Positions 1 to 55,526 of a DNA stretch of 64,000 bases are shown piece after piece. Numbering within the stretch: the first letter of the stretch is position 1; every line of letters begins with the position of its first letter. A model generated the notes under the pieces. That model saw only the letters and a program-made list of their open reading frames with translations, was not told where the DNA came from and made no database searches. The DNA comes from Liolophura sinensis (taxonomy: Eukaryota > Mollusca > Polyplacophora > Chitonida > Chitonidae). The stretch spans positions 33,573,979 to 33,637,978 of the forward strand of contig NC_088302.1 in assembly GCF_032854445.1 (NCBI RefSeq), in the 5' to 3' direction. The position numbers and the translations under genes are program-made.

Positions 1-1232
1 TTTTTTTCGATTTTGTTAGCAGCAGAACTCCAACACCGTTCAACATAGAAGTTCAAAATTTTGCACACATAATCTAGCGGAAATTTTCTAGGGGTATATT
101 TTTTTTTTTTTTGCTATGTCACGTGGTTCGGCCACCATATTGGATTTTGTGTATAATCTTTAAAAATCTTCTTCTCCAGAACAACTGAACCGATCATTGT
201 CAAATTTAACATGCAACTAGTAGGTCATGAGTTCTTTAAAGTTTGCGAAAATGGTTTACTTCCGATCAAAACTCTGGAAGCTCGCCATTGGTCGAATTTA
301 TGACGTCACAAAAAGTTCTCAAAGTTCATTTGTTCTGAACGAATTCTGATGTATCTTGAGCTGCTGATTCCGAATCTGGTTGTATTTTTTGCATATCTGT
401 GTAACTTTTTGAGATATGAGCAAAAAACTAAAAAAATTACGTAATTTCAATGGCGTTTTAATCGAGAACTATGGCAGCTAGAAATGTGCAAATTGCATGA
501 AAATGTAGTTCAAGACACGCTCTTTCGATCATTCGTCAACGGATTTGAGCTCCGATCAATAGTTTTCTCGCTAGAAGCGTTTAAAAAACAACACCGTTTT
601 TGTTTAGAAAAAGATGGGAATCCTATTGCTTTAACATGGAGTTAGATGGGGAATGGACTGGATTTGCAGTATTTGACCTGATGCTTTCGGCTACACTGTC
701 CGTGATCTCCCGAAACGGTTGTAGGATGACATTCAGCTATACAGTACTATATTAGATGGCGTAGAGATCTAACTACAACAGTAAACGGCATGCAACTGTA
801 AAAGTTAGCTTTGTTTTGCGTAGACCTCGTCCTCTTTACTATACGTTAAACAGACCAGGGTGATTGACAGATATGGACATGTGCCCTGGTATAACTGCTG
901 ACTTTCTAACGATGGCCGAGCTATCAGTGGAGCTGTGAGTCTGTGCATGGCAGGTCGTAGATTGAGATGTGAATCTTCAAACTTGCTGTTACACTGGTCG
1001 TGTTTTTGCCTTATTTCTTACAATTAGCGGGCTAAGTCTGCCAAGAAACGACCGTTTTTCACTAGGCATAGCGTAGCATCATCAAGGTCTCCGATCTATT
1101 CGAGGGAATGCAAATGACTGGCCGACTGCCTCAGTGACAAACGGTGTAAGGTCGCATGGAAACTTTAAAAGCCGTGTATGTGGCGCATGTATCCTTCGAA
1201 TTCGAACTTCGAAACATGAAGGAGAAAACGTC

Positions 1233-1287
1233 ACCGATCCGATCCGGGATCCCGGCCTAGGATCTGCTATTCGCAGATCCATTCTAG
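1233..1287 (+). mobile_element. Helitron-like 3' terminus, copy 1
   Basis: The palindrome CCGGGATCCCGG is followed by an 8-bp stem, GGATCTGC / GCAGATCC, with loop TATTC at 1260-1280. Then comes ATTCTAG, followed by T. A short hairpin a few bases before a CTRR end, inserted before a T, is the known signature of Helitron 3' ends. No Rep/helicase ORF is present, so the element would be non-autonomous. Confidence 0.55.
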
Positions 1288-2548
1288 TTATTATTATTAT
1301 TTTTTTTTCACCGACCTTGTTAGCAGCAGAACTCAAACACCATTCAATATATAGATCTCAAATTTTGTACACACAATCTGGCGGAGATTTTCTAGACATA
1401 TAATTTTTTTTTTTTTCTCATGTCACGTGGTTCGGCCGCCATATTGGATTTTGTGTAAAATCTTTAAAAATCTTCTTCTCCAGAACCACTGAACCGATCG
1501 TTTTCAAATTTGACATGCAGCTAGTAGGTCACGAGTTCTTTAAAGTTTGCGAAAATGGTTCACTTCCGGTCAAAATTCTGGAAGCTCGCTATTGGTCGAA
1601 TTTGTGACGTCACAAAAAGTTCTCAAGGTTCAAATGTTCTGAACGTATTCTGATGTATCTTGAGCTGCTGATTCTGAATCTGCTTGTATTTTTTTGGTAT
1701 CTGCAAAACTTTTTGAGATATAAGCAAAAAACTCAAAAAAGTTACGTAAGTTCAATGACCTGTAACTCGAGAACTATGGCAGCTAGAAATGTGCAACCTG
1801 CACCAAATTGTAGCCCAAGACATGCTCTTTCGAGCATTCGTCAACGGATTTGAACTCCGATCAAAAGTTTTTTCGCTACAAGCGTTTAAATGACAACACC
1901 GTTTTTTGTTTAGAAAAAGACGGGAATCCCATTGATTTAACATGGAGTTAGAAGGGGACTGGACTGGGATTGTAGTATTTAACCTGATGCTTTCGCCTAC
2001 ACTGTCCGTGATCTTACGAAACGGTTGTAGGATGACATTGATTCCAGTTCCCATCTAACTCCAGTACTCTATTAGATGGCGTAAAGATCTAACTACAACA
2101 GCCAACGACGTGGACCTGTAAAAGTTAGCTTTGTTTTGCGCAGACCTTGTCCTCTTTACTATACGTTAAACAGGCCAGGGAGATTGACAGATATATATAT
2201 GTGCCCTGGTCGAAGTGCTGACTTTCTAACGATGGCCGAGCTATCAGTGGAGCAGTGAGTCCGTGCATGGCAGGTCGTGGATTGAGATGTGAATGTACAA
2301 ACTTGCTGTTACACTGGTCGTGTTTTTGCCTTATTTCTTACAAATAGCGGGCTAAATCTGCCAAGAAACGACCGTTTTTCACTGGGCATAGCGTAGCATC
2401 ATTAGGGTCGCCGATCTATTCGAGGGAATACAAATGACCGGCCGACTGCCTCAGTGATAAACGGTGTAAGGTCGCATGGAAACTTTGAAAGCCGTGTATG
2501 TGGAACATGTGTCCTTCGAACACAGAACATGAAGGGGAAAACCTCATC

Positions 2549-2600
2549 GATCCGATCCGGGATCCCGGCCTAGGATCTGCTATTCGCAGATCCATTCTAG
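2549..2600 (+). mobile_element. Helitron-like 3' terminus, copy 2
   Basis: The same palindrome, 8-bp hairpin and CTAG end as at 1233-1287, exactly 1313 bp further on. It is again followed by a T and a TTATTATT run leading into the next repeat unit (TCACCGACC...). The head-to-tail joint is therefore well defined. Confidence 0.55.
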
Positions 2601-2778
2601 TTCTTATTATTATTATTTTTTTTTCACCGACCTTGTTAGCAGCAGTTACTCAAACACCGTTCAACATAGAGGTCTCAAATTTTGTACACACAATCTGGCG
2701 GAGATTTTCCAGGGGTACATTTTTTGTTTTTTTCTTATGTCACGTGGTTCGGCCGCCATATTGGATTTTGTTTAAAAC

Positions 2779-2809
<31 letters not shown>

Positions 2810-3795
2810 ACCGATCGTTTGCAAATTTGACATGCAGCTAGTAAGTCACGAGTTCTTTAAAGTTTGCGAAAATGGTTCACTTCCGGTCAAAACTCTGGAA
2901 GCTCGCCATTGGTCGAATTTGTGACGTCACAAAAAGTTCTCAAAGTTCAATTGTTCTCAGCGTATTCTGATGTATCTTGAGCTGTCGATTTCGAATCTGG
3001 TTGTATTTTTTGCATATCTGTGTAACTTTTTGAGATATTAGCAAAAAACTCAAAAAAGTTACGTAACTTCAAGGACCTGTAACTCAAGAACTAAGGCAGC
3101 TAGAAATGTGCAACCTGCACCAAAGTGTAGCCCAAGACATGCTCTTTCGAGCATTCGTCAACAGATTTGAGCTCCGATCAATAGTTTTCTCGCTAGGAGC
3201 ATTTAAATGACAACACCGTTTTTTGTTTAGAAAAAGATGGGAATCCTGTTGCTTTAACATGGAGTTAGATGGGGACTGCACTGGGTTTGTAGTATTTGAC
3301 CTGATGCTTTCGGCTACACTGTCCGTGATCTCCAGAAACGGTTGTGCTATGACATTCAGTCCAGTTCCCATCTAACTCCAGTACTCTATTAGATGGCGTA
3401 GAGATCTAACTACAACAGCAAACGACGTGGACCTGTAAAAGTTAGCTTTGTTTTGCCCAGACCTTGTTTTCTTTACTATACGCTAACCAGGCCAGGGTGA
3501 TTGACAGATATGGACATGTGCCGTGGTCCAGGTGTTGACTTTCTGACAACAGCCGAGCTATGAGTAGAGCTGTGAGTCTGTGCATGGCAGGTCGTGGATT
3601 GAGACGTGGAAGTTCAAATTTGCTGTTACACGGGCTGTGTTTTTGCATTATTCCTTACATAAAGCCAGCCAAGTCTGCCAAGGAATAACCGTTTTTTCAC
3701 TGGGCATAGTGTCGCATAGGGAATGATCGGCCGACTGCCTCAGTGACAAACGGTGTAAGGTCGCATTTAGACATTAAAAGCCGTGTAGCTAGTTA

Positions 3796-4772
3796 TGTGT
3801 TGATTTTCGACCAATAACTTATGTTCTCATATAAAAGATGAAAGCATAAAGAAAATTTGTATGTAGACTTGAAGTGAGGTTTGCGACTTCCTTGGGGACT
3901 ACGTGAGATATACAATAGTGTGGGTGGTAGGGGAGATGCTGGCGAAATTTTCTAAGACTTGACCTAATTACACAAGGATTTAAACGCTAACCGTCTTCCG
4001 TCTGCGTGGTGTGACGCCTGTCAGTCATGTCAGAGTTCGATCCCAGCTTAGCCAATTTGTCAGGGGATAAAAATGTTGTGAATTTTAAGGTTTCAAGTAG
4101 GCTGCTAGGCGTAGTTCGATGTTCTGATGACGAATTTGGTTGTTTTTCCTTTGTCCGACGCATGGTTTTGTCGCCAATTGCCATCAAAGTGCGAAAAAGT
4201 GCAATTTTTGCCCATGTTTGGCCGTCACGTGACACAAAACTGCTGCAGCTGTGGAGCTGAAAATCACTGAGTACAAAGGGCAATATGCGCACTGTAGGCG
4301 TGCGTAAAATCATGGAAGTGTGTCAATAAATGTGGGAGTTGCAATGCTTCAAATATTGTCCAAGGGCCGATTGGCTATATTTGGCACTTTGACGTCCCCA
4401 TGTTATATGATGCATTTTAAATGCATTTGCGACTGGGATAAAGGCACGAACAATGTAAGCATGCTACCCGACGTAGTTTAACGTCCTGATCATGAATCTG
4501 GAATTATTTCTTTCCGGAGACGCATAGTTTTGCTGCAAATGGCGATGAAAACGCGAAAAAGCGCAATTTTTCACCATATTTGGAGATCTATTGCGAGGAA
4601 ACCGTAACAGCCGTAAAGCTGAAAATCACCGAGTGCAAAGCGCTAAATACGTACACTATGTGTGCCGAAAATCTTTGATCTGTGTCAACAACCACAGGAC
4701 ATGCAGGGGAAAATGTCATCGATCCGATCCGGGATCCCGGCCTAGGATCTGCTATTCGCAGATCCATTCTAG
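3796..4772 (+). mobile_element. Divergent 3' segment of third Helitron-like copy
   Basis: After copy 3 stops matching, about 920 bp of different sequence leads to a third instance of the hairpin and CTAG terminus (4716-4772). It contains a diverged internal repeat. Roughly 4095-4310 resembles 4470-4680, sharing GACGCAT.GTTTTG, GCGAAAAAG.GCAATTTTT and GAGCTGAAAATCAC. No coding potential is recognised. It may be a related element with the same end but another body. Confidence 0.5.
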
Positions 4773-5770
4773 TTATTATTGTTTTTGTATTGAGACTTTG
4801 TCATTTTGACATCACGCATTCTGTGGGCTAGTGGTTGGTTTCCTAGTGAAGCACAGTGACCCAGGAGCCTCCCACCAGTGTGGTTGCTGTGAATGGGCAC
4901 GCACTGGTTTCTTCTAGCCATACACCTGATGTGGGTAATTTAAGAGAAAAATTCTTAAGTACAGCATTCAAGTAACTTGGAGAGCATGGGACTTGGCCAA
5001 TTGGGTACGATGTTTGTCTTTCATTGGCTAAGTCAAACTCATTTCAAACTTGTTCTCGGGCACAGAATTTTCAAGTTTCCTCTAGCTTTCATTGCTTTCG
5101 GTGTCATGGAGCCGTGGAGGTAATAATCGATTGATGGTATTGTCTTGTTTAATCTTACACAAAGTTGGCTGGTGAGACCACTTGCCTTTCATCATACAGG
5201 CCTCGGGTATACCGTGTCAAAAGCCAATGTCAGTCAGTGGTTTATTCTGGTTTTCTGAACAATTGCCTTATTTATTCAACCTTTTCAACCACCTAAGTTA
5301 CCAGTATTTCTTGAAAAGTTCTGAGAGAACTGTAGGGTGTAGAGAAATAATCTGCTTTTATGAAAACTTTCATCTTTAGTGACACAAACAAATCATTTTT
5401 GGTGTTATTTTCATAATTGTGTGCATAAATTACACCGAAAAAAGTGCTTTAGCAGTTGAAAAGGTTGTATATTTATGGTAATATTCTGCCCCATATTATA
5501 TGAGTGAAAAATACCCGAGTATGGCATTAAACAACAACAACAACAAAAAATCCTTTTTGGTATAAGTTATTTCCCCTTATAAATGGAGCCATTCTCATGG
5601 AAATAGATACTGGAAAGAAATTCACTTTATTACGGTTTCATGACCCAATCAGATTCCACCCTGGTTAATGATGGCAGATAAATCTTTGCTCTATTAATGA
5701 TGGATGAGCCTGTATATGTAAATACATGGTCTTCAAGTTTAACTGAAAAGGAATATATTGTTGGTTATAG
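4773..5770. other. Intronic or intergenic stretch with decayed SINE pieces
   Basis: No coding exon is recognised. A weak SINE-A match lies at about 4847-4980 (GACCCAGGAGCCTC, then TTCTTAAGTACAGC) and a tail relic at about 5495-5550. The N-terminal half of NCBP1 would be expected upstream of 5771 but is not seen here. Confidence 0.5.
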
Positions 5771-5908
5771 GTTCTGCACATGGTTTGCCTATCACTTGAG
5801 TAACTTTCAGTTTCGCTGGAGCTGGGAAGACTGGACTATAGCAACACAGTTAGACCCAGAGTTACCAAAACCCAAGTTTGTCCGAGAAGTCTTACATCGT
5901 TGTCTGAG
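5771..5908 (+). CDS. NCBP1: NCBP1 exon (first in window)
   Basis: Acceptor GGTTATAG, donor GTAGGT. Begins with the last base of an Arg codon, then [20 protein letters not shown], and ends at ...HRCL plus two bases of Arg. The in-frame ORF extends upstream to 5697, but the acceptor and the family alignment place the exon start at 5771. Confidence 0.92.
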
Positions 5909-8900
5909 GTAGGTGTCACATACTACTTGTTATGTCAACGATAATCATTTTTCTGTGTAGTTTAGTGAAATATTCTTGAGTACAGTGTAACACACCAGTC
6001 AAATAAATAAAAATATTCTGTTGAGTTCACGTTTCCAGGCTGCTCACTTGTGCTGTTTTCCAGTATTTTGCAGCAGTATATATTTAGTATAGCATACCTA
6101 ACCGCTCTTCCTACAGGTGGCTAGTCGGCACAAGCATTGTTTCTTACGCTTATTTCAAAGACATCATAGCCTGGAATTATGGAAAATTATGTTATTCCTG
6201 GAAGTTGCTTTTTTTTTTTTTTTTTTTTGTAAAGAGGCCTGACCCGCTAAGTCCTGTGGCTGAAACTTGCTCATAAATGTATGTCTGACTGCATTGTGGG
6301 ATGTTGTATAAAGTGATATTATTCTGGAGCCACTTTCACACAGCGTCAAGTGCATTTGCAATTGCTGCTTAAAGCTTAGCTACGTTTCCCTATATGCTCA
6401 GTATATAACTTTTTTCTAAAACAGGGCCTAGTGTATGGTAAAAAAAAAAAAAACAACAAAAAAAAAAATGAACCAAAAAATAAAGGCCATCATCAAGTAC
6501 AACTAAAAATGCCTTTTTAAAGGCATATAAATGTTAAAAGATATTATTTTCGGTGCTGAAACGTACAAGTTTCCAGTAGAATGTCATCCCATGTTCCAAG
6601 TAAACTTCAAAACACCTTTCTAAAATCAGAACTCACAGAATCAGGAAAAATGGGCAAGGTAGTCATGGACGATATTTATGGTATATGTGGAAAAAAACTA
6701 TTGGTCCTCTCATCGCAGGTTATCTTATCATCAGAGACTGGTAGACACCTGTCCAGAGAGCTTCTCCAGCCTTCTGCCCATCAAGCCTGCAGCATTTTAC
6801 AAGTACGACAGAGAGGGTGCAGGTGTGTACACATGTAAAAGTATTTGAGGTTAAAAGAAAAAATAAAATATGAAATGCATGCATTTAACTGGAGCTCTGT
6901 AAGCATGCTACATTTTCAGTTTGGTAAGAATGAGTATGAGTGATATATCCATGTATTCTAATTTCAGCAGGTCTCCTTAACTTCTGGGTTCTTCCACCTA
7001 TAAACTTGGCTGCCATCACATGAGTGAACAGTTATTGAGCATGGCATTGAACAGCAATCAGATAACTAAATGAATTTAATTAAGCACATATTTTTGATGA
7101 AGTGAAGATTGTATCAGGAAATTAAGATGTGAGAGCTGCTTTTGTGGCTTAACATCATAATCTTTCATTTTGCCTCTAATATATCGGCCATGTCAGCATG
7201 GGAATATCGAAGTTCAGTGGTCTCTCAGCTGCTCCAGCAGGTAGACGGTATGAAATTAGTGTGTTGAAGAATCTGCTTCTCTCAAGAAACATGAGAGAGT
7301 CAGGTCTGAACAATTCCTGCAGACCACTAGTATTTGCTTTTCCTCCAAAACTTGGAGATCTCTCATCCATTCTAGGTATTTTGGGGGAAAGGCCTGACTC
7401 TGGGTAAGTACAGATCATCTCTGATTGTGTTTGTAGGAGAGTTACCTGGCACGATGGTGGCTCACAAACTCATGCAGGCCATCAAATCCAAATGTTCTCC
7501 GGAGGAAGCAGCTGAAATACTGAAGGAATTACCCAACCCATTAGCAGAGGAAGAACGTGAGTATAGGGAGAAAGTAGCAGAGAGCTACTAAAAATAAGTT
7601 GCATTAAACCAATAGCGTTTAGATACACTGTCATAGGGCATATGCAACTCGGGTAAGACCACAAAAGAGCATCTCCTTGGCAGACAGAAGACCAAGGTTC
7701 AATCCTGAATTAGATCAAGTGTCAGACATCAAAATCCGCAATCCTCATCACATGGCACTCAGCATAATCAGTGGTCAAAATAATCTGCCTGTCTCAGAAA
7801 GGTAACTTTTTTTTCATCTTTCACTTAGAAAAATACCTTTCTGAGACAGGTGAATTTAAGATGACTGTTCTTGGATTTTTTTTTTTTTTTTTTTGATTGT
7901 TGTTTTGTGCCGTACTCAAGAATATTTCACTTATGCGACGGCGGCCAGCATTATGGTGGGTGGAAAACGGGCGGAGCCCAGGGGGAAACCCAAGACCATC
8001 CCACAAAGTTTTGAGAAAGTGTCACTACGTACCTCTGGCACATCTGTGTAATCGAACAGCCTGAAGACGACACTGGGGAGAGGGTACTGGACATCCTCAT
8101 GGTGCCCGGGGGGAATGATCTGAGGTAAGGTGTGCTGTAAATCCTCACTGAGCACGCTGTCAAACGCCAGGTACGGTCGTAACACCTGCTTCTCCAGCCA
8201 CTTGTTGTTCCGCAGGTTGGTGATTTGTGCCCACAATGAGTCCAGGTACTGTAGGACGAACGCAGGCAAAAATACATACATCACGTTTTTTCATCTGTCA
8301 CTTAGAAAAATACCTTTCGGAGACAGGTGAATTTAAGATGACTTTTTTTTTTTTTTTGATTGTTGTTTTATGCCATACTTAAGAATATTTCACTTATGCG
8401 ACGGCGGCCAGCATTATGGTGGGTGGAAACCAGGCAGAGCCCGGGGGATACCCACGACCATCCGCAGGTTGCTGACAGACCTTCCCACGTACAGCCGGAG
8501 AGGAAGCCAGCATAAGCTGGTCTTGAACTCACAGCGACCGCATTGGTGAGAGGCTTTTGGGTCACTACGCTGCGCTAGTGCGCTAACCGACTGAGCCACG
8601 GAGGCCCCTGACCATTCTTGGAAGTTTCTGAAATATTTTGGGACAAAATTCAGTATATTCATCTTAGAACTTAAGAATTTTCTTTTCAGTTTTGACACCA
8701 TCTGTTTTTTGGCCATTCTCTGTATTGAAAGTGCTGCATTTTTTTTCTATGGTAGGATTAAACTCATGACAATTATTGTTATCTTTACTTTGAAATGTAT
8801 GCAACAGTATCATGTAAATTAGGGATGAAAGGACCTGGCATGGTCATGACGGTAAGGCGAAGAATCAGACCCAGAAACGGATTATAAGAAAGTGCAAATT

Positions 8901-11900
8901 TCAAAATGCCAGCTCAGTTCTGTAAATTTTATAGAAGAGATGGTTGCTTAGTAATAACTGGCCAAATATGTACTCTCGATCAAAAACACCAAGTGTCGAA
9001 ATTTGAAAGACATCCTTCATGATACAGTGAACTAACAAAGTCACTGTGGAGAACGCGTAGCACTTGGAGAAAGAGTTCAAAAGAAGTGGTTTATTTCTCT
9101 TTCACTGGAAACATTTTTTTGTGTGAGTGAAGTGATAAGCTAACATTTATAAAATACATGAACGTGTTTTCATGAATCAGAATTAAGATACAGCTGTAAT
9201 TGTAAAAGCATGCTAATACATGTGGTAACTAAATCAAAATCATACGTCAGTCAGGCTGGACAGCACATGTGGTCGCCTATCATGACCTTACCATGCTACA
9301 GTATGTGTGATATGTACTATAATTGTAAGGCTGAAAGTTACATTTGTTATATATTTGTTTATAACTGGAAAAGAGAATTAAGGCAGAGCTGAAAACACAA
9401 GAGGCTTTACATTGCTATAGTCATTTTTGCTTTTTGAGGGGCACATTTTTTTGCACTTGGCCTGATTCCACCACACATCCCCTACCCCACCCGTATCATA
9501 CCAGGTCCTTTGCACCACATCAAAAAAGATCCTACAGTCGTTCACACAGTGACTTGTAATTTGTATTTTAAATCAAAGCAATACTGCAAGGATATTCTGT
9601 TTATGTTTTGCAGATGAGCCGTCCCATCATCCGCTGAAGATTGATGTTTTTGTGTCCACGTTACTTCATTTGGCTCAGAAGTCCTTCAGTCATTCCTTCG
9701 CAGCTATAGCCAAGTAAGCATGCTGTCTTGTCTGTAGGGAAGGAGGGGTATTTTACCAAACTGAGGTTATTAATAAAATAGTGGTTATTAATGAAAAAAG
9801 GACAGATGGTCTGGATGGTTGCCATGTATTATTAGCAATTGGGTGCTTTACATAGGTCCCTGGTTCGACACCCAGTATGTTTTGAGTCCGTGTTCTTCAC
9901 TAGAACCTGACTGTGCTGTACCCCGAACGTGTAAGTTCTAAACAGCGATAATGCTTCTACCAAAACTGCAACAACTGGTTGACTCATATCAGTATAATGG
10001 ATCGGCCCGCGCGGCTTGCTCACCTTCGGTAAGGTGTCTGAGTGAAGCAGCACTAGATAAAAGAGCGGTGGAAATCCGTCCTGTAACAAGGAGGCACATT
10101 ACATATGACTGAAAAATTTTTAAGTACAACACTAAACCCCAAGTACCCACACACTCACTCAATCTACCAAGACTGTTTTTAAATAACATTCACAAAACTG
10201 ATATGTTCATCTATGAAAGCTGTGTCATTACTGATCTTCCAGAGAAGTAATGCATAATCAACCAGTCAACTACCACCTATTTTTGGGAGACGCCTGTTGA
10301 CTGATTATTATTAGTTCGTTGACATGTGATTAGGTGTTTGACTTTGAGGTGGCTGGTTCCTGCAGTGGTTAGGTATATGTAATTTACAGCGTTATAACCT
10401 GCGGTTTACCCATGAAGTATCAATTCCAAATAGCAGTAAGATCACACCAATTTATATTTTTCTTATATGGGCAGAATAATTTTTTTTTAAATGTCAGAAG
10501 AAGGTTTCACAATAAAAATAAAACTGGAAAATCATCTTGTATGCGAGAAATGTGAAGTCATTAGGCCTCTTGAAGCCATATTTTCATGATCAGAAAACCT
10601 TGCACAAACAACACCCAAGATCAGATAAAATAAAAAGGTAGACCTTAATTTTTTTTTTTTTTCATTTTTGCCAGGAAATGTTGTTAGAACTCAACTTGCA
10701 TTTGAAAAGAAATTTGTCGAGTCGTACAGAACCCATACAAATCCATGATAACGTGTCGTTTTCTCTGACAAGATACAAACACCTTCAGCTTGCCCAGCTG
10801 TGAGATCAGTTGGGGTGACATCACCTGAAACTGTGATATTTACAGTCATTAAGGAGTTCTCAACTCCATTGCCTTAGTCTTTTCTTGGGTAGCCATGTAT
10901 GAATTCAGATGTTTTCCTACAGTTACATTTTGTGTTATACACCTGTTGATCCTCTGATAATTTGACTAGATTTGGTAAAGGTTGTGTTGATCTGTAAAAA
11001 AAGTAAAATAACCTACAACTAAACTCGTGATTTAAATTTTCAGATTTCACTTTCTGCTGAAAAGTCTGGCGGAATCAGAAGATGGTCAAATCTGCATTTT
11101 AAAAACAATGTTTGAAGTTTGGGAAACTCATCCACAGGTTTGTCGAACTTTTTGATACTTATTTGGATAAAAATCTTTCGGCAGATTTCACTTTTTGTTG
11201 AATAATTGTGGGCCAGAAAGCTTAAAGGCAAAGCCACATTTTTGTGGCAAAGTCATTGTGATATGTTTGTGTTAATGAGACTGAAGAATTATAATTATTT
11301 TCTTTGTTTTAGATGATGGTGGTGTTGGTGGACAAAATGCTGAAGACACAGATTGTGGAATGTTCTGCTGTGGCTAATTGGCTATTCTCAAATGAAATGC
11401 AGCCACAGTTTACCAGGTATGAGAGCAGGATCTGTCTCAATCTCAAATCTGTGATCTGTGTAATGATATAGAAACATTGTGGTCTCTGAGCACAGTGATG
11501 CAATGGAACTTGCCAACACCAACACTTCTGAAAACCGACATTGAGTCAATACAAACCATCTCACCTGGCCTACTTTTATCTCAATTTACCACCCGTGTTA
11601 TTTTTATTGAATAAACCACCGCTTGTGTATTGTGAATACCAATTGGCAGGGTTCTGCCCACAATCTTCGAGCGCACCCGGCACTAGGGTTGAGTGCCCAA
11701 TGTCAGACACAAAATCTTGATGTGCCCAGCACGCCCATAAAGTGTAATCATGTTAAAACGAACATTTTTTTGTGCTACCAGGCAGGATTGGTTTACACAA
11801 ATTTTATTTTATGAACTTTATGATCTCTGATTGTGATGGTATAAACTTTGTGATCCATGATTGTAATGGTAAAAACTTTGTAATCCATGATTGTAGTGAT

Positions 11901-14900
11901 ATAAACTTCGTGATCCGTGATTGTAATGGTATAAACTTTGTGCTCCATGATTGTAATGATATAAACTTTGTGATCCCTGATGGTGATGGTATAAACCTTG
12001 TGATCCATGATTGTAGTGATATAAACTTTGTGATCCCTGATTGTAATGGTATAAACTTTGTGATCCCTGATTGTAATGGTATAAACTTTGTGACCCATGA
12101 TTGTTATGGTATAAACTTTGTGACCCATGATTGTAGTGATATAAAGTTTGTGATCCCGGATTGTAATGGTATGAACTTTGTGACCCATGATTGTAATGAT
12201 ATAAACTTTGTGATCCCTGATAATGATGACACAGTGCCTCTTGTTATAGGTTCTATGTGTGGGAGATCATGCACAGCACAATTAAGAAGATGAGCCGTCA
12301 TGTGGAGAAGTTACAGGCTGAGGTGGATGATGCCCGGGACAGGCTAGAAGTGGCCCAGAGGAGGGTATGGCTTTATGCTGTCCAGTTGTTTCAGAGCTGT
12401 AGATTTTCTGTTTGTTGTATGTTACATGTATTTTTTTGAGTGTTGTACCTTTTTCAGCATCGCGTGATATGAGCGCTGCACCTTGTCAGTGATTTGAGTT
12501 TCACTGTTGTAGCTGAATATCTGTGTTCATATATTTCTTTGTTTTTCCTCAGAATTGTAAAATGTCATATCTGACCTTATCTTACATATGGTGTGTTTTC
12601 ATTCTGTATCTCATCTGCACTTGTTCTTAGCTTCTGTTGTCCGTCTCTTGTTCAGTTTTATTTTCAGTTTTCTTTTTAGTTCCTCATCCTGTGATGGTTT
12701 TTTCGGTCCACCATCTCATCCTCTGATGATTATTTTAGTTCTGTCCCATCTTCTGCTGTTTGTTTCAGTTTTCTGTCACACCCTTTGATATTTGTTTCAG
12801 TTTTCTGTTTCATCCTCTGATGCTTGTTTCAGTTTTCTGTCTCATCCTCTGATGCTTGTTTCAGTTTTCTGTCTCATCCTCTGATGCTTGTTTCAGTTTT
12901 CTGTCTCATCCTCTGATGCTTGTTTCATTTTTCTGTCTCATCCTCTGATATTTGTTTCAGTTTTCTGTCTCATCCTCTGATGCTTGTTTCAGTTTTCTGT
13001 CTCATCCTCTGATATTTGTTTCAGTTTTCTGTCTCATCCTCTGATGCTTGTTTCAGTTTTCTGTCTCATCCTCTGATATTTGTTTCAGTTTTCTGTCTCA
13101 TCCTCTGATATTTGTTTCAGTTTTCTGTCTCATCCTCTGATATTTGTTTCAGTTCTCTCAGATGATCTGTGTTTAAGCTATCTCGTCTCATCCTAAAATC
13201 TCTTAAAATCTGTGTCAGTTCTCTCATCTTTTTCTTGGTTATCGTGTCCTCTATGATCTGTGTCTCGGTTATCTCCTCCTCTTATGATCTGTCTTGGTTA
13301 TCTCCTCCTCTTATGATCTGTGTCATGGTTATCTCCTCCTCTTATGATCTGTGTCATGGTTATCTCATCCTCTTATGATCTGTCTTGGTTATCTCCTCCT
13401 CTTATTATCTGTCTAGGTTATCTCATCCTCTTATGATCTGTGTCATGGTTATCTCATCCTCTTATGATCTGTCTTGGTTATCTCCTCCTCTTATGATCTG
13501 CCTTGGTTATCTCATCCTCTTATGATCTGTGTCTTGGTTATCTCATCCTCTTATGATCTGTGTCTTGGTTATCTCATCCTCTTATGATCTGTCTTGATTA
13601 TCTCCTCCTCTTGTGATCTATGTCCTTGTTATCTTATTCTCCTATGATCTCTGTTTCCATTACATGTATCTCACTCACCTGTGATGCGTGTTTCAGGGAG
13701 AGGACATGGAGTACCGTGATGCAGACATGCCCACAGAGGAGATGATAGAAAGGATGGAGGAGAGACTGGAGACAGCGCAGACAGAGCAGAAGGGACTCTT
13801 CCTCATCATCTTCCAGGTTAGCCTTCACATGTTAAACCACAGTCCTGTGACTAATTGATGTTGTGAAAATGATCTATGTTGATTAGGTTAACAAAAAGAC
13901 ACTTGAATGTTAGCAAAGAATGTTAAAAGACAGTTTCACAAAGTAATTTAGAGTAGATGAATGATGAAGAAAGTTGAGGAGTTAGACATTGTGAACTGGA
14001 GAAGTTTCTAAAGAAAAGAGGTGTCATTTGTGTCACTGGAGCACAGCGAGACAGGTGATGGATAATTAATATTCACAACGATTTGCCTATCATATTTCAC
14101 AAGTCACGTGATAGAGTAGGACTGTTTATACCTTTACTCTCAGAAGAGTTCGATGTCAAAACTCCCCAATTAGATAGAAAACCTATTTACTACGGCATAC
14201 ATGCATACCTTTATGACAACTGTTTTGTGTGTTGATTTCAGCGATTCATCATCATCTTGACGAATCACCTGGCTCGCTGTGAGGGGGAGGGGATTGATTA
14301 CAACACACCCTGGTACAAGTGGGTTAGTGAGAGACTCCAGCAAATCTTCTTACAGGTGAATGGACATAACATCAGTATCTTATATACTGTGAAGTACATA
14401 TGGAACTAATTTTCGCAAATTTCACAGTCAGGAATTTACCGCGTGTAAACGAATTCCAGTGTAAACGAATTACAGTGTTGAGTCGTATATTACAAGCAGT
14501 AGTATCAATAAAGCTGGCAGGAGTGTGGAGAAGAAAACCTGGCAGGCCAGGTAAAGTTTAACAGCAGAGAGGGAAGATTAGGCTTCAAATATATGTATAA
14601 AAAATCAGATTACGAGGATTAGCGGCACTGCAGGAAACAAAAGAGGATTAGAGCCACCCTTGATTATACCTGTTTAACATCTGCTTTAGTAATTTTCAGG
14701 CCATTTTATTGCTAGGGCAGTTATACAGTTTTACTATTTTTTTCAGTAATGCCTTGATTAAATACACAAAAATTAATTCCTGCACCCATGTTTGAAGTAA
14801 ATCTGGGAAAATGAATTCCAGCGAATAATAAGTACTTAACATAAAATCTTTGGATTTCCCCTTGTGGCTTTCCCCTTGGGTTCTGCTCAGTTTCCTCCCA

Positions 14901-15586
14901 CCATACTGGTGGCTTCCATCGTATAAGTGAAATATTCTTGAGTACAGAGTAGAACTGCAGTTAAATAAAATAAATAAATATTGCTTCATAAGGCTGTAAG
15001 TCGGCAGGTTTGTCAGAATTGTGGAGGAGGTGGTCATGGGTTTGCTCAGGTCGCTCTTTATTTTTCCCCAGCCAGAAGTCTTCTTGCTCAAGTGTGAGTC
15101 AAAAATGCTTGAGTATGGTATTAAACACCAATCAAATAAATACATAAATTGTTCTTCCTTCTGGAGGACCTTAGCAGGGCAATAGTTGTTCATGCGTTCA
15201 TGAAGGTTACACTTTCAAAATGAAAAGTCTATCTTGGCTGACGTGTGCTGTATCATGTATAAATTGGAAGTTTGGAATGTATAGTGCCCATTGGATTTAG
15301 GGATTATGTGATTTTTTTATTTGATGGCATAATTTGTCATAATTTTAATGGTAGAGTTGTTAATCTATATCACAGCTCAACAAAATTCATTTGTTGTTTT
15401 TTTTTTTTGTTGTTTGAAATTTTTCTGTTTCATGAAAGATTTCAAAAGCTTATTTTTCTCTTTCCTTTTCAGCACCATGAGCTTGTGTTCAAGTACATCA
15501 GCACTTTGGAGACGTTGTTGTTTACCAGTGATATAGACATTCACATCCTGATAACCTTCCAACAGTTCTGTGCCCTTAGATCTTGA
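5771..15586 (+). CDS. NCBP1: NCBP1, C-terminal half, ten exons
   Basis: Large subunit (CBP80) of the nuclear cap-binding complex. With NCBP2 it binds the m7G cap of RNA polymerase II transcripts and couples capping to splicing, export and decay. Exons: 5771-5908, 6719-6822, 7437-7556, 9614-9713, 11044-11137, 11313-11416, 12250-12364, 13697-13816, 14242-14355 and 15473-15586. All have AG/GT borders, phases join, and together they encode about 374 aa. Family hallmarks: [103 protein letters not shown] and the C-terminal FQQFCAL. The human protein is about 790 aa, so the N-terminal half, including the first MIF4G domain, is missing upstream. A poly(A) signal lies at 15681. Confidence 0.96.
5954..6013 (+). 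repeat. SINE-A tail fragment
   Basis: Contains GTGAAATATTCTTGAGTACA and CAGTCAAATAAATAAA, the 3' end of the SINE described at 45648-45915. Confidence 0.6.
6719..6822 (+). CDS. NCBP1: NCBP1 exon
   Basis: Acceptor ATCGCAG, donor GTGTGT. Encodes [15 protein letters not shown]..., then [11 protein letters not shown]. The phase matches both neighbouring exons. Confidence 0.93.
7437..7556 (+). CDS. NCBP1: NCBP1 exon
   Basis: Acceptor TTTGTAG, donor GTGAGT. Encodes [19 protein letters not shown] and an acidic end, PNPLAEEE, matching the acidic segment at this place in the family. Confidence 0.92.
7788..7850. repeat. Perfect 17-bp inverted repeat
   Basis: CCTGTCTCAGAAAGGTA at 7788-7804 is the exact reverse complement of 7834-7850, with a 29-bp loop. 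The right arm and the following sequence recur at 8311 with one mismatch, but without the left arm. Confidence 0.85.
7804..8000 (-). repeat. SINE-A 3' fragment plus flank, left copy of direct duplication
   Basis: The flank (TTTCATCTTTCACTTAGAAA...) and a reversed SINE-A tail (ACTCAAGAATATTTCACTTA, GCGGCCAGCATTATGGTGGG) match 8284-8470 in the same order. The SINE breaks off at CCATCC, where the inverted NCBP1 exon fragment begins. Confidence 0.8.
8033..8248 (-). pseudogene. NCBP1: Inverted, intact NCBP1 exon inside an NCBP1 intron
   Basis: On the minus strand this is a full 216-nt exon of 72 codons in phase 0, bordered by acceptor GTCCTACAG and donor GTACGT. It encodes [52 protein letters not shown] and VPE. 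It aligns with the part of NCBP1 that precedes all the plus-strand exons here, around the end of the first MIF4G region. It has no stop or frameshift. Only about 33-37 bp of intron-like flank remains on each side. It cannot be spliced into the plus-strand transcript. It is a real local rearrangement, a captured exon copy, or an assembly chimera. Confidence 0.9.
8284..8609 (-). repeat. SINE-A, near full length, reverse orientation, with duplicated flank
   Basis: Read on the minus strand: a tRNA-like head (GGGGCCTCCGTGGCTCAGTC, B-box-like GAGTTCAAGACC), the conserved body and an ATATTCTTAAGTATGGC tail with a poly(A)-like end. The head lies at about 8609 and the tail at about 8343. Positions 8284-8342 repeat 7806-7866. 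Confidence 0.85.
8825..8965 (+). repeat. Dispersed repeat shared with 45590-46075
   Basis: AAAGGACCTGG...GGTAAGGCGAAGAATC and the following CAAATTTCAAAATGCCAGC...TTCTGTAAATTT match the reverse complement of about 45940-46070. It may be an old MITE. No termini were defined. Confidence 0.6.
9614..9713 (+). CDS. NCBP1: NCBP1 exon
   Basis: Acceptor TTTGCAG, donor GTAAGC. Encodes [18 protein letters not shown] then [10 protein letters not shown], one of the best conserved stretches of the family. Confidence 0.95.
9966..10166 (+). repeat. SINE-B, 5'-truncated copy
   Basis: Shares CAACTGGTTGACTCATATCA, GAAGCAGCACTAGATAAAAG and CGTCCTGTAACAAGGAGGCA, plus the AAACCCCAAG end, with the SINE-B copies at 27200 and 31711. 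The tRNA-like head is missing. Confidence 0.8.
11044..11137 (+). CDS. NCBP1: NCBP1 exon
   Basis: Acceptor TTTTCAG, donor GTTTGT. Encodes [15 protein letters not shown] and [10 protein letters not shown]. Confidence 0.94.
11313..11416 (+). CDS. NCBP1: NCBP1 exon
   Basis: Acceptor TGTTTTAG, donor GTATGA. Encodes [18 protein letters not shown] and [11 protein letters not shown]. Confidence 0.95.
11813..12225 (+). repeat. 30-bp minisatellite, about 13-14 units, in NCBP1 intron
   Basis: The unit is close to GTGATCCATGATTGTAATGG then TATAAACTTT. Because the period is a multiple of three, it keeps long open frames on both strands (plus 11772-12293, minus 11793-12188) reading as 10-residue repeats such as [10 protein letters not shown]. 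The plus ORF runs into the next NCBP1 exon in the wrong frame. These are taken as by-products of the repeat. Confidence 0.9.
12250..12364 (+). CDS. NCBP1: NCBP1 exon
   Basis: Acceptor TTATAG, donor GTATGG. Encodes [19 protein letters not shown] and a charged coiled-coil-like run. The 30-bp minisatellite ends about 25 bp before this acceptor. Confidence 0.94.
12690..13165 (+). repeat. 32-bp pyrimidine-rich minisatellite with repeated TTTCAG
   Basis: The unit is close to TCATCCTCTGATGCTTG then TTTCAGTTTTCTGTC, repeated about 13-14 times. Each unit has a pyrimidine tract and a TTTCAG, so it looks like a 3' splice acceptor. It lies in the intron before the exon at 13697. Confidence 0.9.
13236..13660 (+). 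repeat. 29-31-bp pyrimidine-rich minisatellite
   Basis: The unit is close to TTATCTCATCCTCTTATG then ATCTGTGTCTTGG, repeated about 13 times. It follows the 32-bp array and shares the TCATCCTCT core, so both probably grew from one seed. Confidence 0.88.
13697..13816 (+). CDS. NCBP1: NCBP1 exon
   Basis: Acceptor GTGTTTCAG, donor GTTAGC. Encodes a glutamate-rich helix, then [11 protein letters not shown]. The linker is shorter than I recall for the human protein. Its acceptor resembles the minisatellite unit just upstream. Confidence 0.93.
14242..14355 (+). CDS. NCBP1: NCBP1 exon
   Basis: Acceptor GATTTCAG, donor GTGAAT. Encodes [23 protein letters not shown] and ERLQQIFLQ. Confidence 0.95.
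14861..15150 (+). repeat. Two SINE-A 3' fragments
   Basis: 14861-14982 has GTATAAGTGAAATATTCTTG followed by AAATAAATAAATA. About 15078-15150 has a weaker copy ending in AAACACCAATCAAATAAATA. Both are in the last NCBP1 intron. Confidence 0.7.
15473..15586 (+). CDS. NCBP1: NCBP1 terminal coding exon
   Basis: Acceptor CTTTTCAG, stop TGA at 15584-15586. Encodes [17 protein letters not shown] to FQQFCALRS, the usual C-terminus of the family. Confidence 0.95.
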
Positions 15587-20984: not shown

Positions 20985-29438
<8,454 letters not shown>

Positions 29439-38000: not shown

Positions 38001-38107
<107 letters not shown>

Positions 38108-45635: not shown

Positions 45636-46075
45636 TTTAAGGCATTAGCGGGGCCTCCGTGGCTCAGTCGGTTAGCGCGCTAGCGCAGCGTAATGACCCA
45701 GGAGCCTCTCACCAATGCGGTCGCTGTGAGTTCAAGTCCAGCTCATGCTGGCTTCCTCTCCGGCCGTACGTGGGAAGGTCTTTCAGCAACCTGCGGATGG
45801 TCGTGGATTTCCCCCGGGCTGTGCCCGGTTTCCACCCACCATAATGCTGGCCGCCGTCGTATAAGTGAAATATTCTTGAGTACGGCGTAAAACACCAATC
45901 AAATAAATAAATAAATTTAAGGCATTATAACTTTCATCAGTGCTTCAAACTAGTTTTATACTTCTGATTCGGAAATTTACAGAATTGTGCTGGGAATTTG
46001 AAATTTTCACTTTTTTTAATCCTACCTCTCAGGGGCCGATTCTCCGCCTTACCGTATAAGGTCCTTTTTAGCAAA
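45590..46075 (-). repeat. Dispersed repeat, interrupted by SINE-A
   Basis: The outer parts match, in reverse, the sequence at 8825-8965 (GGTAAGGCGGAGAATC and CTGTAAATTT on the minus strand; GGTTATTACTAAGCAACCAT on the plus). SINE-A at 45648-45915 sits inside it, so it is the older element. Confidence 0.65.
45648..45915 (+). repeat. SINE-A reference copy, full length, 12-bp target duplication
   Basis: tRNA-derived SINE with head GGGGCCTCCGTGGCTCAGTC (A-box-like TGGCTCAGTCGG, B-box-like GAGTTCAAGTCC), then a conserved body (GCTGGCTTCCTCTCCGGCCG, ACCATAATGCTGGCCGCCGT) and the tail AAATATTCTTGAGTACGGCG ... CACCAATCAAATAAATAAAT. TTTAAGGCATTA at 45636-45647 recurs at 45916-45927. It resembles the widespread molluscan SINE families with a shared 3' domain; exact family name not claimed. 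Seven or more further copies occur in the window. Confidence 0.93.
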
Positions 46076-48250: not shown

Positions 48251-51200
48251 AAATATGACCCCTGAACGCTATTCCCATAATCACAAATGCCAGTGTAATG
48301 GTCTTTGCCCGTTGTATCAGTCGATGTACATGTATATAAGCAGTTAAATATGACTCCTGAACGCTATTCCCATAATCACAAATGCCAGTGTAATGGTCCT
48401 TACCCGTTGTATCGGTCGATGTACATGTATATAAGCAGTTAAATATGACTCCTGAACGCTATTCCCATAATCACAAATGCCAGTGCAATGGTCCTTACCC
48501 GTTGTATCAGTCGATGTACATGTATATAAGCAGTTAAATATGACTCCTGAACGCTATTCCCATAATCACAAATGCCAGTGCAATGGTCCTTACCCGTTGT
48601 ATCAGTCGATGTACATGTATATAAGCAGTTAAATATGACTCCTGAACGCTATTCCCATAATCACAAATGCCAGTGCAATGGTCCTTACCCGTTGTATCAG
48701 TCGATGTACATGTATATAAGCAGTTAAATATGACTCCTGAACGCTATTCCCATAATCACAAATGCCAGTGCAATGGTCCTTACCCGTTGTATCAGTCGAT
48801 GTACATGTATATAAGCAGTTAAATGTGACTCCTGAACGCTATTCCCATAATCACAAATGCCAGTGTAATGGTCCTTACCCGTTGTATCAGTCGATGTACA
48901 TGTATATAAGCAGTTAAATAGGACTCCTGAACGCTATTCCCATAATCACAAATGCCAGTGTAATGGTCCTTGCCCGTTGTATCAGTCGATGTACATGTAT
49001 ATAAGCAGTTAAATATGACTCCTGAACGCTATTCCCATAACCACAAATGCCAGTGCAATGGTCCTTACCCGTTGTATCAGTCGATGTACATGTATATAAG
49101 CAGTTAAATATGACTCCTGAACGCTATTCCCATAACCACAAATGCCAGTGTAATGGTCCTTGCCCGTTGTATCAGTCGATGTACATGTATATAAGCAGTT
49201 AAATATGACTCCTGAACGCTATTCCCATAATCACAAATGCCAGTGTAATGGTCCTTACCCGTTGTATCAGTCGATGTACATGTATATAAGCAGTTAAATA
49301 TGACTCCTGAACGCTATTCCCATAACCACAAATGCCAGTGTAATGGTCCTTGCCCGTTGTATCAGTCGATGTACATGTATATAAGCAGTTAAATATGACC
49401 CCTAAACGCTATTCCCATAATCACAAATGCCAGTGCAATGGTCCTTACCCGTTGTATCAGTCGATGTACATGTATATAAGCAGTTAAATATGACTCCTGA
49501 ACGCTATTCCCATAATCACAAATGCCAGTGTAATGGTCCTTACCCGTTGTATCAGTCGATGTACATGTATATAAGCAGTTAAATATGACTCCTGAACGCT
49601 ATTCCCATAATCACAAATGCCAGTGTAATGGTCCTTACCTGTTGTATCGGTCGATGTACATGTATATAAGCAGTTAAATATGACTCCTGAACGCTATTCC
49701 CATAATCACAAATGCCAGTGTAATGGTCCTTACCCGTTGTATCAGTCGATGTACATGTATATAAGCAGTTAAATATGACTCCTGAACGCTATTCCCATAA
49801 CCACAAATGCCAGTGCAATGGTCCTTACCCGTTGTATCAGTCGATGTACATGTATATAAGCAGTTAAATATGACTCCTGAACGCTATTCCCATAATCACA
49901 AATGCCAGTGTAATGGTCCTTACCCGTTGTATCAGTCGATGTACATGTATATAAGCAGTTAAATATGACTCCTGAACGCTATTCCCATAACCACAAATGC
50001 CAGTGCAATGGTCCTTACCCGTTGTATCAGTCGATGTACATGTATATAAGCAGTTAAATATGACTCCTGAACGCTATTCCCATAATCACAAATGCCAGTG
50101 TAATGGTCCTTACCCGTTGTATCAGTCGATGTACATGTATATAAGCAGTTAAATATGACTCCTGAACGCTATTCCCATAATCACAAATGCCAGTGTAATG
50201 GTCCTTACCTGTTGTATCAGTCGATATACATGTATATAAGCAGTTAAATATGACTCCTGAACGCTATTCCCATAATCACAAATGCCAGTGCAATGGTCCT
50301 TACCCGTTGTATCAGTCGATGTACATGTATATAAGCAGTTAAATATGACTCCTGAACGCTATTCCCATAATCACAAATGCCATTGTAATGGTCCTTACCC
50401 GTTGTATCAGTCGATGTACATGTATAGAAGCAGTTAAATATGACCCCTGAACGCTATTCCCATAATCACAAATGCCAGTGTAATGGTCCTTACCCGTTGT
50501 ATCAGTCGATGTACATATATATAAGCAGTTAAATATGACTCCTGAACGCTATTCCCATAACCACAAATGCCAGTGCAATGGTCCTTACCCGTTGTATCAG
50601 TCGATGTACATGTATATAAGCAGTTAAATATGACTCCTGAACGCTATTCCCATAACCACAAATGCCAGTGCAATGGTCCTTACCCGTTGTATCAGTCGAT
50701 GTACATGTATATAAGCAGTTAAATATGACTCCTGAACGCTATTCCCATAACCACAAATGCCAGTGCAATGGTCCTTACCCGTTGTATCAGTCGATGTACA
50801 TGTATATAAGCAGTTAAATATGACTCCTGAACGCTATTCCCATAATCACAAATGCCAGTGTAATGGTCCTTGCCCGTTGTATCAATCGATGTACATGTAT
50901 ATAAGCAGTTAAATATGACCCCTGAACGCTATTCCCATAACCACAAATGCCAGTGTAATGGTCCTTGCCCGTTGTATCAGTCGATGTACATGTATATAAG
51001 CAGTTAAATATGACCCCTGAACGCTATTCCCATAACCACAAATGCCAGTGTAATGGTCCTTGCCCGTTGTATCAGTCGATGTACATGTATATAAGCAGTT
51101 AAATATGGCTCCTGAACGCTATTCCCATAATCACAAATGCCAGTGCAATGGTCCTTACCCGTTGTATCAGTCGATGTACATGTATATAAGCAGTTAAATA

Positions 51201-54174
51201 TGACCCCTAAACGCTATTCCCATAATCACAAATGCCAGTGCAATGGTCCTTACCCGTTGTATCAGTCGATGTACATGTATATAAGCAGTTAAATATGACT
51301 CCTGAACGCTATTCCCATAATCACAAATGCCAGTGTAATGGTCCTTACCCGTTGTATCAGTCGATGTACATGTATATAAGCAGTTAAATATGACTCCTGA
51401 ACGCTATTCCCATAATCACAAATGCCAGTGTAATGGTCCTTACCTGTTGTATCGGTCGATGTACATGTATATAAGCAGTTAAATATGACTCCTGAACGCT
51501 ATTCCCATAATCACAAATGCCATTGTAATGGTCCTTACCCGTTGTATCAGTCGATGTACATGTATATAAGCAGTTAAATATGACCCCTGAACGCTATTCC
51601 CATAATCACAAATGCCAGTGTAATGGTCCTTACCCGTTGTATCAGTCGATGTACATGTATATAAGCAGTTAAATATGACTCCTGAACGCTATTCCCATAA
51701 CTACAAATGCCAGTGCAATGGTCCTTACCCGTTGTATCAGTCGATGTACATGTATATAAGCAGTTAAATATGACTCCTGAACGCTATTCCCATAATCACA
51801 AATGCCAGTGTAATGGTCCTTACCCGTTGTATCAGTCGATGTACATGTATATAAGCAGTTAAATATGACTCCTGAACGCTATTCCCATAACCACAAATGC
51901 CAGTGCAATGGTCCTTACCCGTTGTATCAGTCGATGTACATGTATATAAGCAGTTAAATATGACTCCTGAACGCTATTCCCATAATCACAAATGCCAGTG
52001 TAATGGTCCTTACCCGTTGTATCAGTCGATGTACATGTATATAAGCAGTTAAATATGACTCCTGAACGCTATTCCCATAATCACAAATGCCAGTGTAATG
52101 GTCCTTACCCGTTGTATCAGTCGATGTACATGTATATAAGCAGTTAAATATGACTCCTGAACGCTATTCCCATAATCACAAATGCCATTGTAATGGTCCT
52201 TACCCGTTGTATCAGTCGATGTACATGTATATAAGCAGTTAAATATGACCCCTGAACGCTATTCCCATAATCACAAATGCCAGTGTAATGGTCCTTACCC
52301 GTTGTATCAGTCGATGTACATATATATAAGCAGTTAAATATGACTCCTGAACGCTATTCCCATAACCACAAATGCCAGTGTAATGGTCCTTACCCGTTGT
52401 ATCAGTCGATGTACATGTATATAAGCAGTTAAATATGACTCCTGAACGCTATTCCCATAACCACAAATGCCAGTGCAATGGTCCTTACCCGTTGTATCAG
52501 TCGATGTACATGTATATAAGCAGTTAAATATGACTCCTGAACGCTATTCCCATAATCACAAATGCCAGTGCAATGGTCCTTACCCGTTGTATCAGTCGAT
52601 GTACATGTATATAAGCAGTTAAATATGACTCCTGAACGCTATTCCCATAATCACAAATGCCAGTGTAATGGTCCTTGCCCGTTGTATCAATCGATGTACA
52701 TGTATATAAGCAGTTAAATATGACCCCTGAACGCTATTCCCATAACCACAAATGCCAGTGTAATGGTCCTTGCCCGTTGTATCAGTCGATGTACATGTAT
52801 ATAAGCAGTTAAATATGACCCCTGAACGCTATTCCCATAACCACAAATGCCAGTGTAATGGTCCTTGCCCGTTGTATCAGTCGATGTACATGTATATAAG
52901 CAGTTAAATATGACCCCTGAACGCTATTCCCATAACCACAAATGCCAGTGTAATGGTCCTTGCCCGTTGTATCAGTCGATGTACATGTATATAAGCAGTT
53001 AAATATGGCTCCTGAACGCTATTCCCATAATCACAAATGCCAGTGCAATGGTCCTTACCCGTTGTATCAGTCGATGTACATGTATATAAGCAGTTAAATA
53101 TGACTCCTGGACGCTATTCCCATAATCACAAATGCCAGTGTAATGGTCCTTACCCGTTGTATCAGTCGATGTACATGTATATAAGCAGTTAAATATGACT
53201 CCTGAACGCTATTCCCATAATCACAAATGCCAGTGCAATGGTCCTTACCCGTTGTATCAGTCGATGTACATGTATATAAGCAGTTAAATATGACCCCTGA
53301 ACGCTATTCCCATAACCACAAATGCCAGTGTAATGGTCCTTGCCCGTTGTATCAGTCGATGTACATGTATATAAGCAGTTAAATATGACTCCTGAACGCT
53401 ATTCCCATAACCACAAATGCCAGTGCAATGGCCCTTACCCGTTGTATCAGTCGATGTACATGTATATAAGCAGTTAAATATGACTCCTGAACGCTATTCC
53501 CATAATCACAAATGCCAGTGCAATGGTCCTTACCCGTTGTATCAGTCGATGTACATGTATATAAGCAGTTAAATATGACTCCTGAACGCTATTCCCATAA
53601 TCACAAATGCCAGTGTAATGGTCCTTACCCGTTGTATCGGTCGATGTACATGTATATAAGCAGTTAAATACGACTCCTGAACGCTATTCCCATAATCACA
53701 AATGCCATTGTAATGGTCCTTACCTGTTGTATCGGTCGATGTACATGTATATAAGCAGTTAAATATGACTCCTGAACGCTATTCCCATAATCACAAATGC
53801 CAGTGTAATGGTCCTTACCCGTTGTATCAGTCGATGTACATGTATATAAGCAGTTAAATATGACTCCTGAACGCTATTCCCATAATCACAAATGCCAGTG
53901 CAATGGTCCTTACCCGTTGTATCAGTCGATGTACATGTATATAAGCAGTTAAATATGACTCCTGAACGCTATTCCCATAATCACAAATGCCAGTGCAATG
54001 GTCCTTACCCGTTGTATCAGTCGATGTACATGTATATAAGCAGTTAAATATGACTCCTGAACGCTATTCCCATAATCACAAATGCCAGTGCAATGGTCCT
54101 TACCCGTTGTATCAGTCGATGTACATGTATATAAGCAGTTAAATATGACTCCTGAACGCTATTCCCATAACCAG
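48251..54174 (+). repeat. 95-bp satellite array, about 62 units, with 1805-bp higher-order period
   Basis: The unit is AATATGACTCCTGAACGCTA, TTCCCATAATCACAAATGCC, AGTGTAATGGTCCTTACCCG, TTGTATCAGTCGATGTACAT, GTATATAAGCAGTTA. Units differ by only a few bases: TCAC/CCAC, GTGTAA/GTGCAA, TTACC/TTGCC and rare private variants. There are no spacers. The period is not a multiple of three and stops occur, so it is not coding. Each unit contains TATATAAG, which looks like a TATA box. Variant units recur at a spacing of 1805 bp (19 units). Confidence 0.98.
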
Positions 54175-55526
54175 AATATGAACCATCATACATATATTGT
54201 TGGCGTGAAACATTAGCCATGCTAGTGGTAAATGTCATGCAGTTGGCCTGGGCATTTTCTCCACAGGAGTTTAATATGATTGAGATGACATCACACCATG
54301 ACCTATCTATACCTGTTTTGTGAGATGATGATTTTGATGATTCTGTTGCAGTGAAGATGACAATAGTAATGGCCCAGTGTTCTGCAACTTTCTTAATCGT
54401 TGTCTTTTGGATAATGGTGAAGGAATGATAATAGTGATGATGATAATGGCATTGGTAGTGAAGTGTCTAGACACTTTCAATGTTGTTGACATTCGGAAGG
54501 GTACTGATATTACATTTATTTAAATTCGGATAATGCTGATTTGTTGATGGGGATGATGCTGATGATGAAATGTTCGGGCGCATTCCACATGGCTGACATT
54601 CAGAGAAGTAATTATGTGATGATAGTTATACTTAGGACAATGTTGATCAGCTATACTTTTAGTACTGTTGACATTTGGAAGTGGTGATAACTATTTTGAC
54701 AGGGATGATACTAAAGTAATGATGGTGTCGATGTTGATGTTTAGGTAAGTTTACTGTCAGTATCGCTGAAATAGCATTGTTTTGATGACTGTTTGAATAT
54801 TTCATTTTGATGCCGACGTGTTGATCGTGGTAATGTTAATTACGAAGCCAAGTGGTCGAGCATTTCCCCTTCTTTCTAGCTTTCCATCAGGCACTCGTGA
54901 AGGCGGGGGCGTATATTAATATCAATCAGGGTAGTCAGAGCGATGCTGTCGTGCTACCAGACTTCATTAGGAATCAGATTTGCTTTGCCCCGTCCACGGA
55001 TCTCATGTTACATAGCAGCTATTTTTAAAGACATATGATGTGACTGGCTATGCACTTGGTTTATCAGGACATGACAAATGTTAACTCTTCTCCCCAATAT
55101 GTTGTGGTATATGCAGTCCTTTCTGATTGGTATCGCGGAACACATGATCTCAGATCCACAGAAGAGTGAGATCCGTATCATCATTGTGTATCTGATGCAT
55201 GCAATACTTGAGCTGTGGATTTTGCTTTGCTTATTGGTTCCTTTGCATGGTTTTCATGTGATTGTTAGTTAAATGTGATTGTTAGTTAAATGTGATGACA
55301 ACACAGCATTTGGAGCTTTTCTAGACCGATGACGTCAAATAAATTTCAATTAGTGCCTCTGTATTTTTTTACCTAATTTTCCTTAAGCTGTGGTGCTAAG
55401 GGACGTGTAAGTTGCTACGCAGTATGCATTTACATGAACAGTTAGAACAAAACCCTAATGGGGCTAAACTGAAAAGACTGGATTTCAGTGCTTACGCGAG
55501 AGCATTTGTAAACTGGGGGGGGGGGG

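Follow-up and report, generated by a model that had tools for sequence, protein, structure and literature searches.

An inverted NCBP1 exon in an intron of NCBP1, probably left by an old error-prone DNA repair event

The locus described here raises the question of how a complete exon can come to lie in reverse orientation within an intron of its own gene, and whether such an exon has any function there. The stretch of DNA analysed, referred to below as the window, is 64 kb long. Translation of its minus strand at 8033-8248 gives a frame of 72 residues without a stop codon, which corresponds to a 216-nt exon. These residues were matched to positions 228-299 of human NCBP1/CBP80, with 45 of 72 positions identical and an E value of 1.5e-26; the human chain used for the comparison has 790 residues. 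Seven PDB sequences were matched by the exon at E<=0.001, all of them NCBP1/CBP80 (E from 1.5e-26 to 1.8e-26), and this protein match rules out a chance open frame. AG stands directly before the exon and GT directly after it, the neighbouring sequences being TCCTACAG immediately upstream and GTACGTAG immediately downstream. When the three minus-strand frames of positions 1-15000 were scanned, the exon was recovered in one frame, and the other two frames gave no NCBP1 match at E<=0.001. Translation and protein match thus confirm the preliminary description, which had placed a stop-free 216-nt exon with both splice sites on the minus strand. Pfam returned no family for the 72 residues of the exon. 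Ten frames were compared with Pfam, namely the exon and nine of the 21 stop-to-stop frames of at least 110 residues. At E<=0.01 a frame overlapping an (AG)n stretch at 38005-38107 matched Atrophin-1 above its curated cut-off and two other families below theirs, and no other frame matched.

The gene in which the inverted exon lies is NCBP1 itself. On the plus strand, nine NCBP1 stretches were found in order in the three frames of positions 1-15000, running from human residue 412 (window position 5769) to residue 757 (window position 14373). One of them, at 7439-7555, is weak when taken alone (3.3 bits) and was accepted for its position in the order and for its splice sites. The three plus-strand frames of 1-5762 gave no NCBP1 match at E<=1, and no plus-strand NCBP1 before residue 412 was found within the window. 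The inverted exon therefore encodes a more N-terminal part of the protein (residues 228-299) than all plus-strand matches (residues 412-757), as had been claimed earlier. Its identity to the human protein (62%) falls inside the range of the sense stretches (44-75% in the seven of nine stretches measured), which is as expected for a little-changed copy. A DNA comparison at E<=1e-3 revealed no second copy of the inserted segment within the 64-kb window, that is, in 8 kb upstream and 55 kb downstream. Since neither a second copy nor NCBP1 sequence before residue 412 was found, any donor inside the gene would lie more than 8 kb upstream. The introns between NCBP1 exons at 11810-13650 also contain three arrays of 30-32 bp repeats with about 14 copies each. 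Further along the window, a 95-bp satellite occupies almost 6 kb at 48251-54170 (about 62 copies, 97% matching) and overlaps the greater part of a block in which GC skew is negative.

Table 1. Coordinates of the features making up the compound structure (window positions).
Feature	Position	Strand	Remarks
Host intron of plus-strand NCBP1	about 7557..9613	+	edges read by eye, GT/AG beside matched stretches
Quasi-palindrome	7788..7850		17-nt perfect arms, 7788-7804 and 7834-7850
Left direct copy	7809..8001		about 53 bp of flank, then one half of the probable target-site duplication, the T tract and the 3' portion of the minus-strand SINE; ends in CCATCC
Probable target-site duplication, left half	7862..7875	+	TGACTGTTCTTGGA; adjoins T tract of left copy; 12/14 with right half
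Insert	8002..8285	-	284 bp: exon plus adjoining intron (37 bp upstream, 31 bp downstream); only copy found in window
Complete inverted NCBP1 exon	8033..8248	-	72 codons, human residues 228-299; open frame, AG/GT flanks
Right direct copy	8286..8463		10/162 substitutions relative to left copy outside T tract; flank-to-T-tract stretch 14 nt shorter
SINE	8343..8608	-	full length as judged by relatives; tRNA-like head at 8608 end, tail at T tract
Probable target-site duplication, right half	8609..8622	+	TGACCATTCTTGGA; adjoins SINE head

The insert that carries the exon lies within an intron of the plus-strand NCBP1 gene and is enclosed by direct copies of a segment composed of flank and SINE (Table 1). 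The similarity shared by the two copies after CCATCC ends at 8001 in the left copy and at 8463 in the right one, and the right copy begins in a T run at 8286. The insert therefore extends from 8002 to 8285. A fragment between two repeats had been described before with a length of about 281 bp; the fragment is present, and the corrected edges give 284 bp. The earlier observation that the left copy ends at CCATCC, a motif also contained in the right copy, holds as well, as the similarity stops at exactly this point. CCATCC and, to the same degree, the T6 run at the opposite junction are candidates for junction microhomology. Since the left copy has a similar run (T8) at its own left edge, the T6 run at 8286 may be part of the duplicated flank. 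The exon has retained intron on both sides, which indicates that the insert is genomic sequence and not processed mRNA, and which rules out a retroposed cDNA. At the ends of the insert no inverted repeats of at least 20 nt were detected. The insert is a non-element sequence exceeding 50 bp that interrupts a transposable element, as its 284 bp lie between parts of one SINE, a part of which is present twice. A whole exon is held by about 15% of 284-bp fragments of the region 5700-14700, a value based on approximate exon edges and on eight of the nine sense stretches. The view that the capture of a whole exon is too improbable to be random was rejected on these grounds, and no special mechanism is needed to account for it.

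The direct copies adjoin the insert immediately on both sides (7809-8001 and 8286-8463). Their flank parts are 477 bp apart (7809 versus 8286), in agreement with the repeat spacing given previously, and the SINE bodies are 463 bp apart. This 14-bp difference in spacing arises because flank and T tract lie closer together in the right copy. Outside the T tract the copies diverge at 6.2% of sites (10 of 162). The flank common to both copies had no other match in the window, save for the self-match of the palindrome and some weak matches that extended into no more than its final 16 bases. Moreover, at positions 7908 and 7935 the two copies have T and G, respectively, as against C and A in all four of the other aligned SINE copies; more partial or diverged relatives were excluded from this alignment. 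These shared private changes indicate that both copies derive from one SINE, and together with the shared flank they rule out two independent SINE insertions. In the SINE part, the changes acquired after the duplication comprise four substitutions and one indel in the left copy and three substitutions in the right copy, with one ambiguous change, to which two substitutions in the flank are added. The alignment indicates a single SINE that was duplicated, after which both copies changed.

The head of this element, at its 8608 end, contains an A-box-like word (TGGCTCAGTCGG) and a B-box-like word (GAGTTCAAGACC), as judged against the usual box consensus. ARAGORN (tRNA) and Rfam reported nothing within the window. 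Further copies of the SINE were observed at 22271-22524, 45650-45915, 55523-55788 and 63697-63893, with 84-92% identity to the right copy in the portion that matched, and the window also contains more partial copies. Among mollusc SINEs, the superfamilies V, Meta and Deu are named in a work on bivalve transposons (PMC10294476). On the two sides of the structure stands a 14-bp repeat, the halves of which match at 12 of 14 positions; a match of at least 12/14 occurred in 0.014% of 400,000 random pairs of 14-mers from the window, the register of the observed match having been picked by eye. This repeat is probably what the original SINE, while still single, left as its target-site duplication; it now brackets the compound structure. 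Its position on either side implies that the SINE came first and that the duplication with the insert came later.

On the left, the duplicated segment begins within a quasi-palindrome, in the T run that separates the two arms. The DNA fold of this hairpin has a predicted energy of -20.9 kcal/mol (z -7.25), which was equalled by none of 200 shuffles. After low-complexity filtering it is the sole perfect inverted repeat in the 64 kb with arms of at least 15 nt lying less than 45 nt apart. The hairpin may have been the cause of a break, or it may itself be a scar of template switching. The hairpin, the probable target-site duplication and the 6.2% by which the copies diverge are additions to the preliminary description.

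The structure as a whole is probably best accounted for by an old error-prone repair event that combined a templated insertion with a tandem duplication. In the proposed course of events, a tRNA-derived SINE would have entered the NCBP1 intron on the minus strand, with the probable 14-bp target-site duplication still visible in the sequence. Later, a DNA break would have occurred in or beside the SINE, perhaps at the hairpin. During the repair of this break, the flank and the SINE would have been duplicated over about 180-190 bp, and an inverted copy of a 284-bp stretch with one upstream NCBP1 exon would have been placed between the resulting repeats. This arrangement is directly visible, and the donor would presumably lie upstream in the gene. 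Serial template switching could have been the pathway; alternatively, a staggered break may have been filled in and have received a templated insertion. Finally, the two copies would have diverged by about 6%. Repair by template switching or fill-in is suggested by the intron on both sides of the exon, by the inversion and by the direct duplications of the receiving site. Two findings speak against repair: the donor, if it lies in the gene, is more than 8 kb away, and the tandem copies of about 180-190 bp exceed the less than 100 bp mainly discussed in the literature.

The preliminary description had left the choice between template switching at a microhomology and a chimeric assembly, and of these two, template switching during copying into a break has the better support. 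A chimera of assembly or library, in which a reversed exon fragment became joined to a second allele of the SINE segment, is unlikely. In a highly polymorphic animal the two copies, which differ by 6.2%, could represent alleles, and two alleles of the same SINE, if joined, would share the private changes too. However, the joining of two alleles alone leaves an inverted 284-bp exon segment unexplained, and the shared private changes, the separate changes in each copy and the one bracketing probable target-site duplication fit a locus evolving as a unit, which weakens this possibility. A DNA transposon or a Helitron that captured and carried the segment, or retroposition, is among the least probable explanations. 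The insert does adjoin mobile DNA, and the hairpin lies near one edge of the duplicated segment, but the insert ends lack an inverted repeat of at least 20 nt, the retained intron is foreign to a processed mRNA, the flanking copies of about 180-190 bp are far above the usual length of a target-site duplication, and the window holds no second copy of the insert.

A function of the inverted exon itself, either as an antisense exon or through in-cis decoy pairing with the sense exon that would hide its splice sites and lead to skipping, editing or circular RNA, is very improbable. In its favour are the intact frame and both intact splice sites, the identity to the human protein within the range of the sense stretches, and the case of human ACSBG2, where an inverted exon is described as transcribed antisense (PMC2671141). 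Neutral simulation, however, keeps frame and splice sites intact often. Of 20,000 simulated neutral copies of the insert, 65% remained intact at 3% substitution, and 25% when indels were included; the assumed 3% is half of the copy divergence, indels were assumed to occur at 15% of the frequency of substitutions, and a single indel inside the exon counted as fatal. With so high a neutral survival of the frame, intactness is weak evidence for selection, and the simulation leads us to reject it as proof of selection. Moreover, according to the account in PMC2671141, coding constraint was not detected for the inverted ACSBG2 exon. The earlier proposal of an antisense exon or an RNA duplex is thus left without support, as an intact frame is fairly likely by chance and the ACSBG2 parallel shows no detected coding constraint. 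That the inverted copy has been kept specifically as an in-cis antisense decoy is most doubtful. If this were true, nascent NCBP1 RNA would hold the exon and, more than 8 kb further on, its reverse complement with both splice sites; folding could then mask the exon, induce editing or promote circular RNA, and so tune the level of the cap-binding protein. Most likely, the inserted exon is inert intronic sequence.

An event consistent with the repair explanation has been published. Pace et al. (2009; PMC2671141) describe ACSBG2 exon 7 copied in inverted orientation into an intron of the gene it comes from; its frame is intact, and it is transcribed antisense in human. This was the only match in a literature search for a duplicated exon in opposite orientation, and searches on the antisense-copy mechanism, mollusc templated insertions and SINEs gave no match. 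The repair-mediated duplications of that work resemble the NCBP1 case in that a short genomic segment was copied into an interrupted transposable element. That class is also marked by a single further copy serving as donor, by breakpoints with microhomology, filler or a deletion, and by insert ends free of poly-A/T tracts; at the NCBP1 insert, CCATCC and T6 are the candidates at the junctions. Among the human candidates, the donor lies within 5 kb in 824 of 1,136, and the authors state confidence in these only. The NCBP1 insert falls outside this proximal class (donor at <=5 kb): whereas the confident class has its donor less than 5 kb away, the NCBP1 segment has no copy within the window, and any in-gene donor would lie more than 8 kb off. 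The NCBP1 case further differs in having a tandemly duplicated flank-plus-SINE segment, and the set of Pace et al., as presented there, comes from vertebrates, whereas the NCBP1 case, to judge by the type of its SINE, probably comes from an invertebrate.

Tandem duplications are known to arise at breaks with overhangs (PMC8355091, PMC5730883), and Vaughn and Bennetzen (2014) are cited in these works on staggered-break tandem duplications formed by fill-in and end joining. The direct duplication at a repaired break is common to these and to the present locus. In PMC8355091, however, such duplications are discussed mainly as insertions of less than 100 bp, whereas the NCBP1 copies measure 178-193 bp with the 284-bp inverted insert between them. 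A further parallel is provided by a DMD exon, the inversion of which was ascribed to template switching (PMC4303224; exon 50 in the results, exon 44 in the abstract), a FoSTeS/MMBIR case in which an exon is likewise inverted within its own gene and short microhomology is present at two junctions. There, in contrast, the inversion affected 4,260 bp at their original position and was flanked by deletions (618 bp and about 12 kb), whereas the NCBP1 exon lies in a different intron and is presumably an extra copy.

Summarizing, the NCBP1 locus is a new example of a published kind of event and not a new kind. It is a well-preserved case, in which the order of events can be read, of break repair that would have placed a whole exon with its splice sites at another site in its own gene. 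It may be used for timing exon copying and for asking whether inverted exon copies affect splicing.
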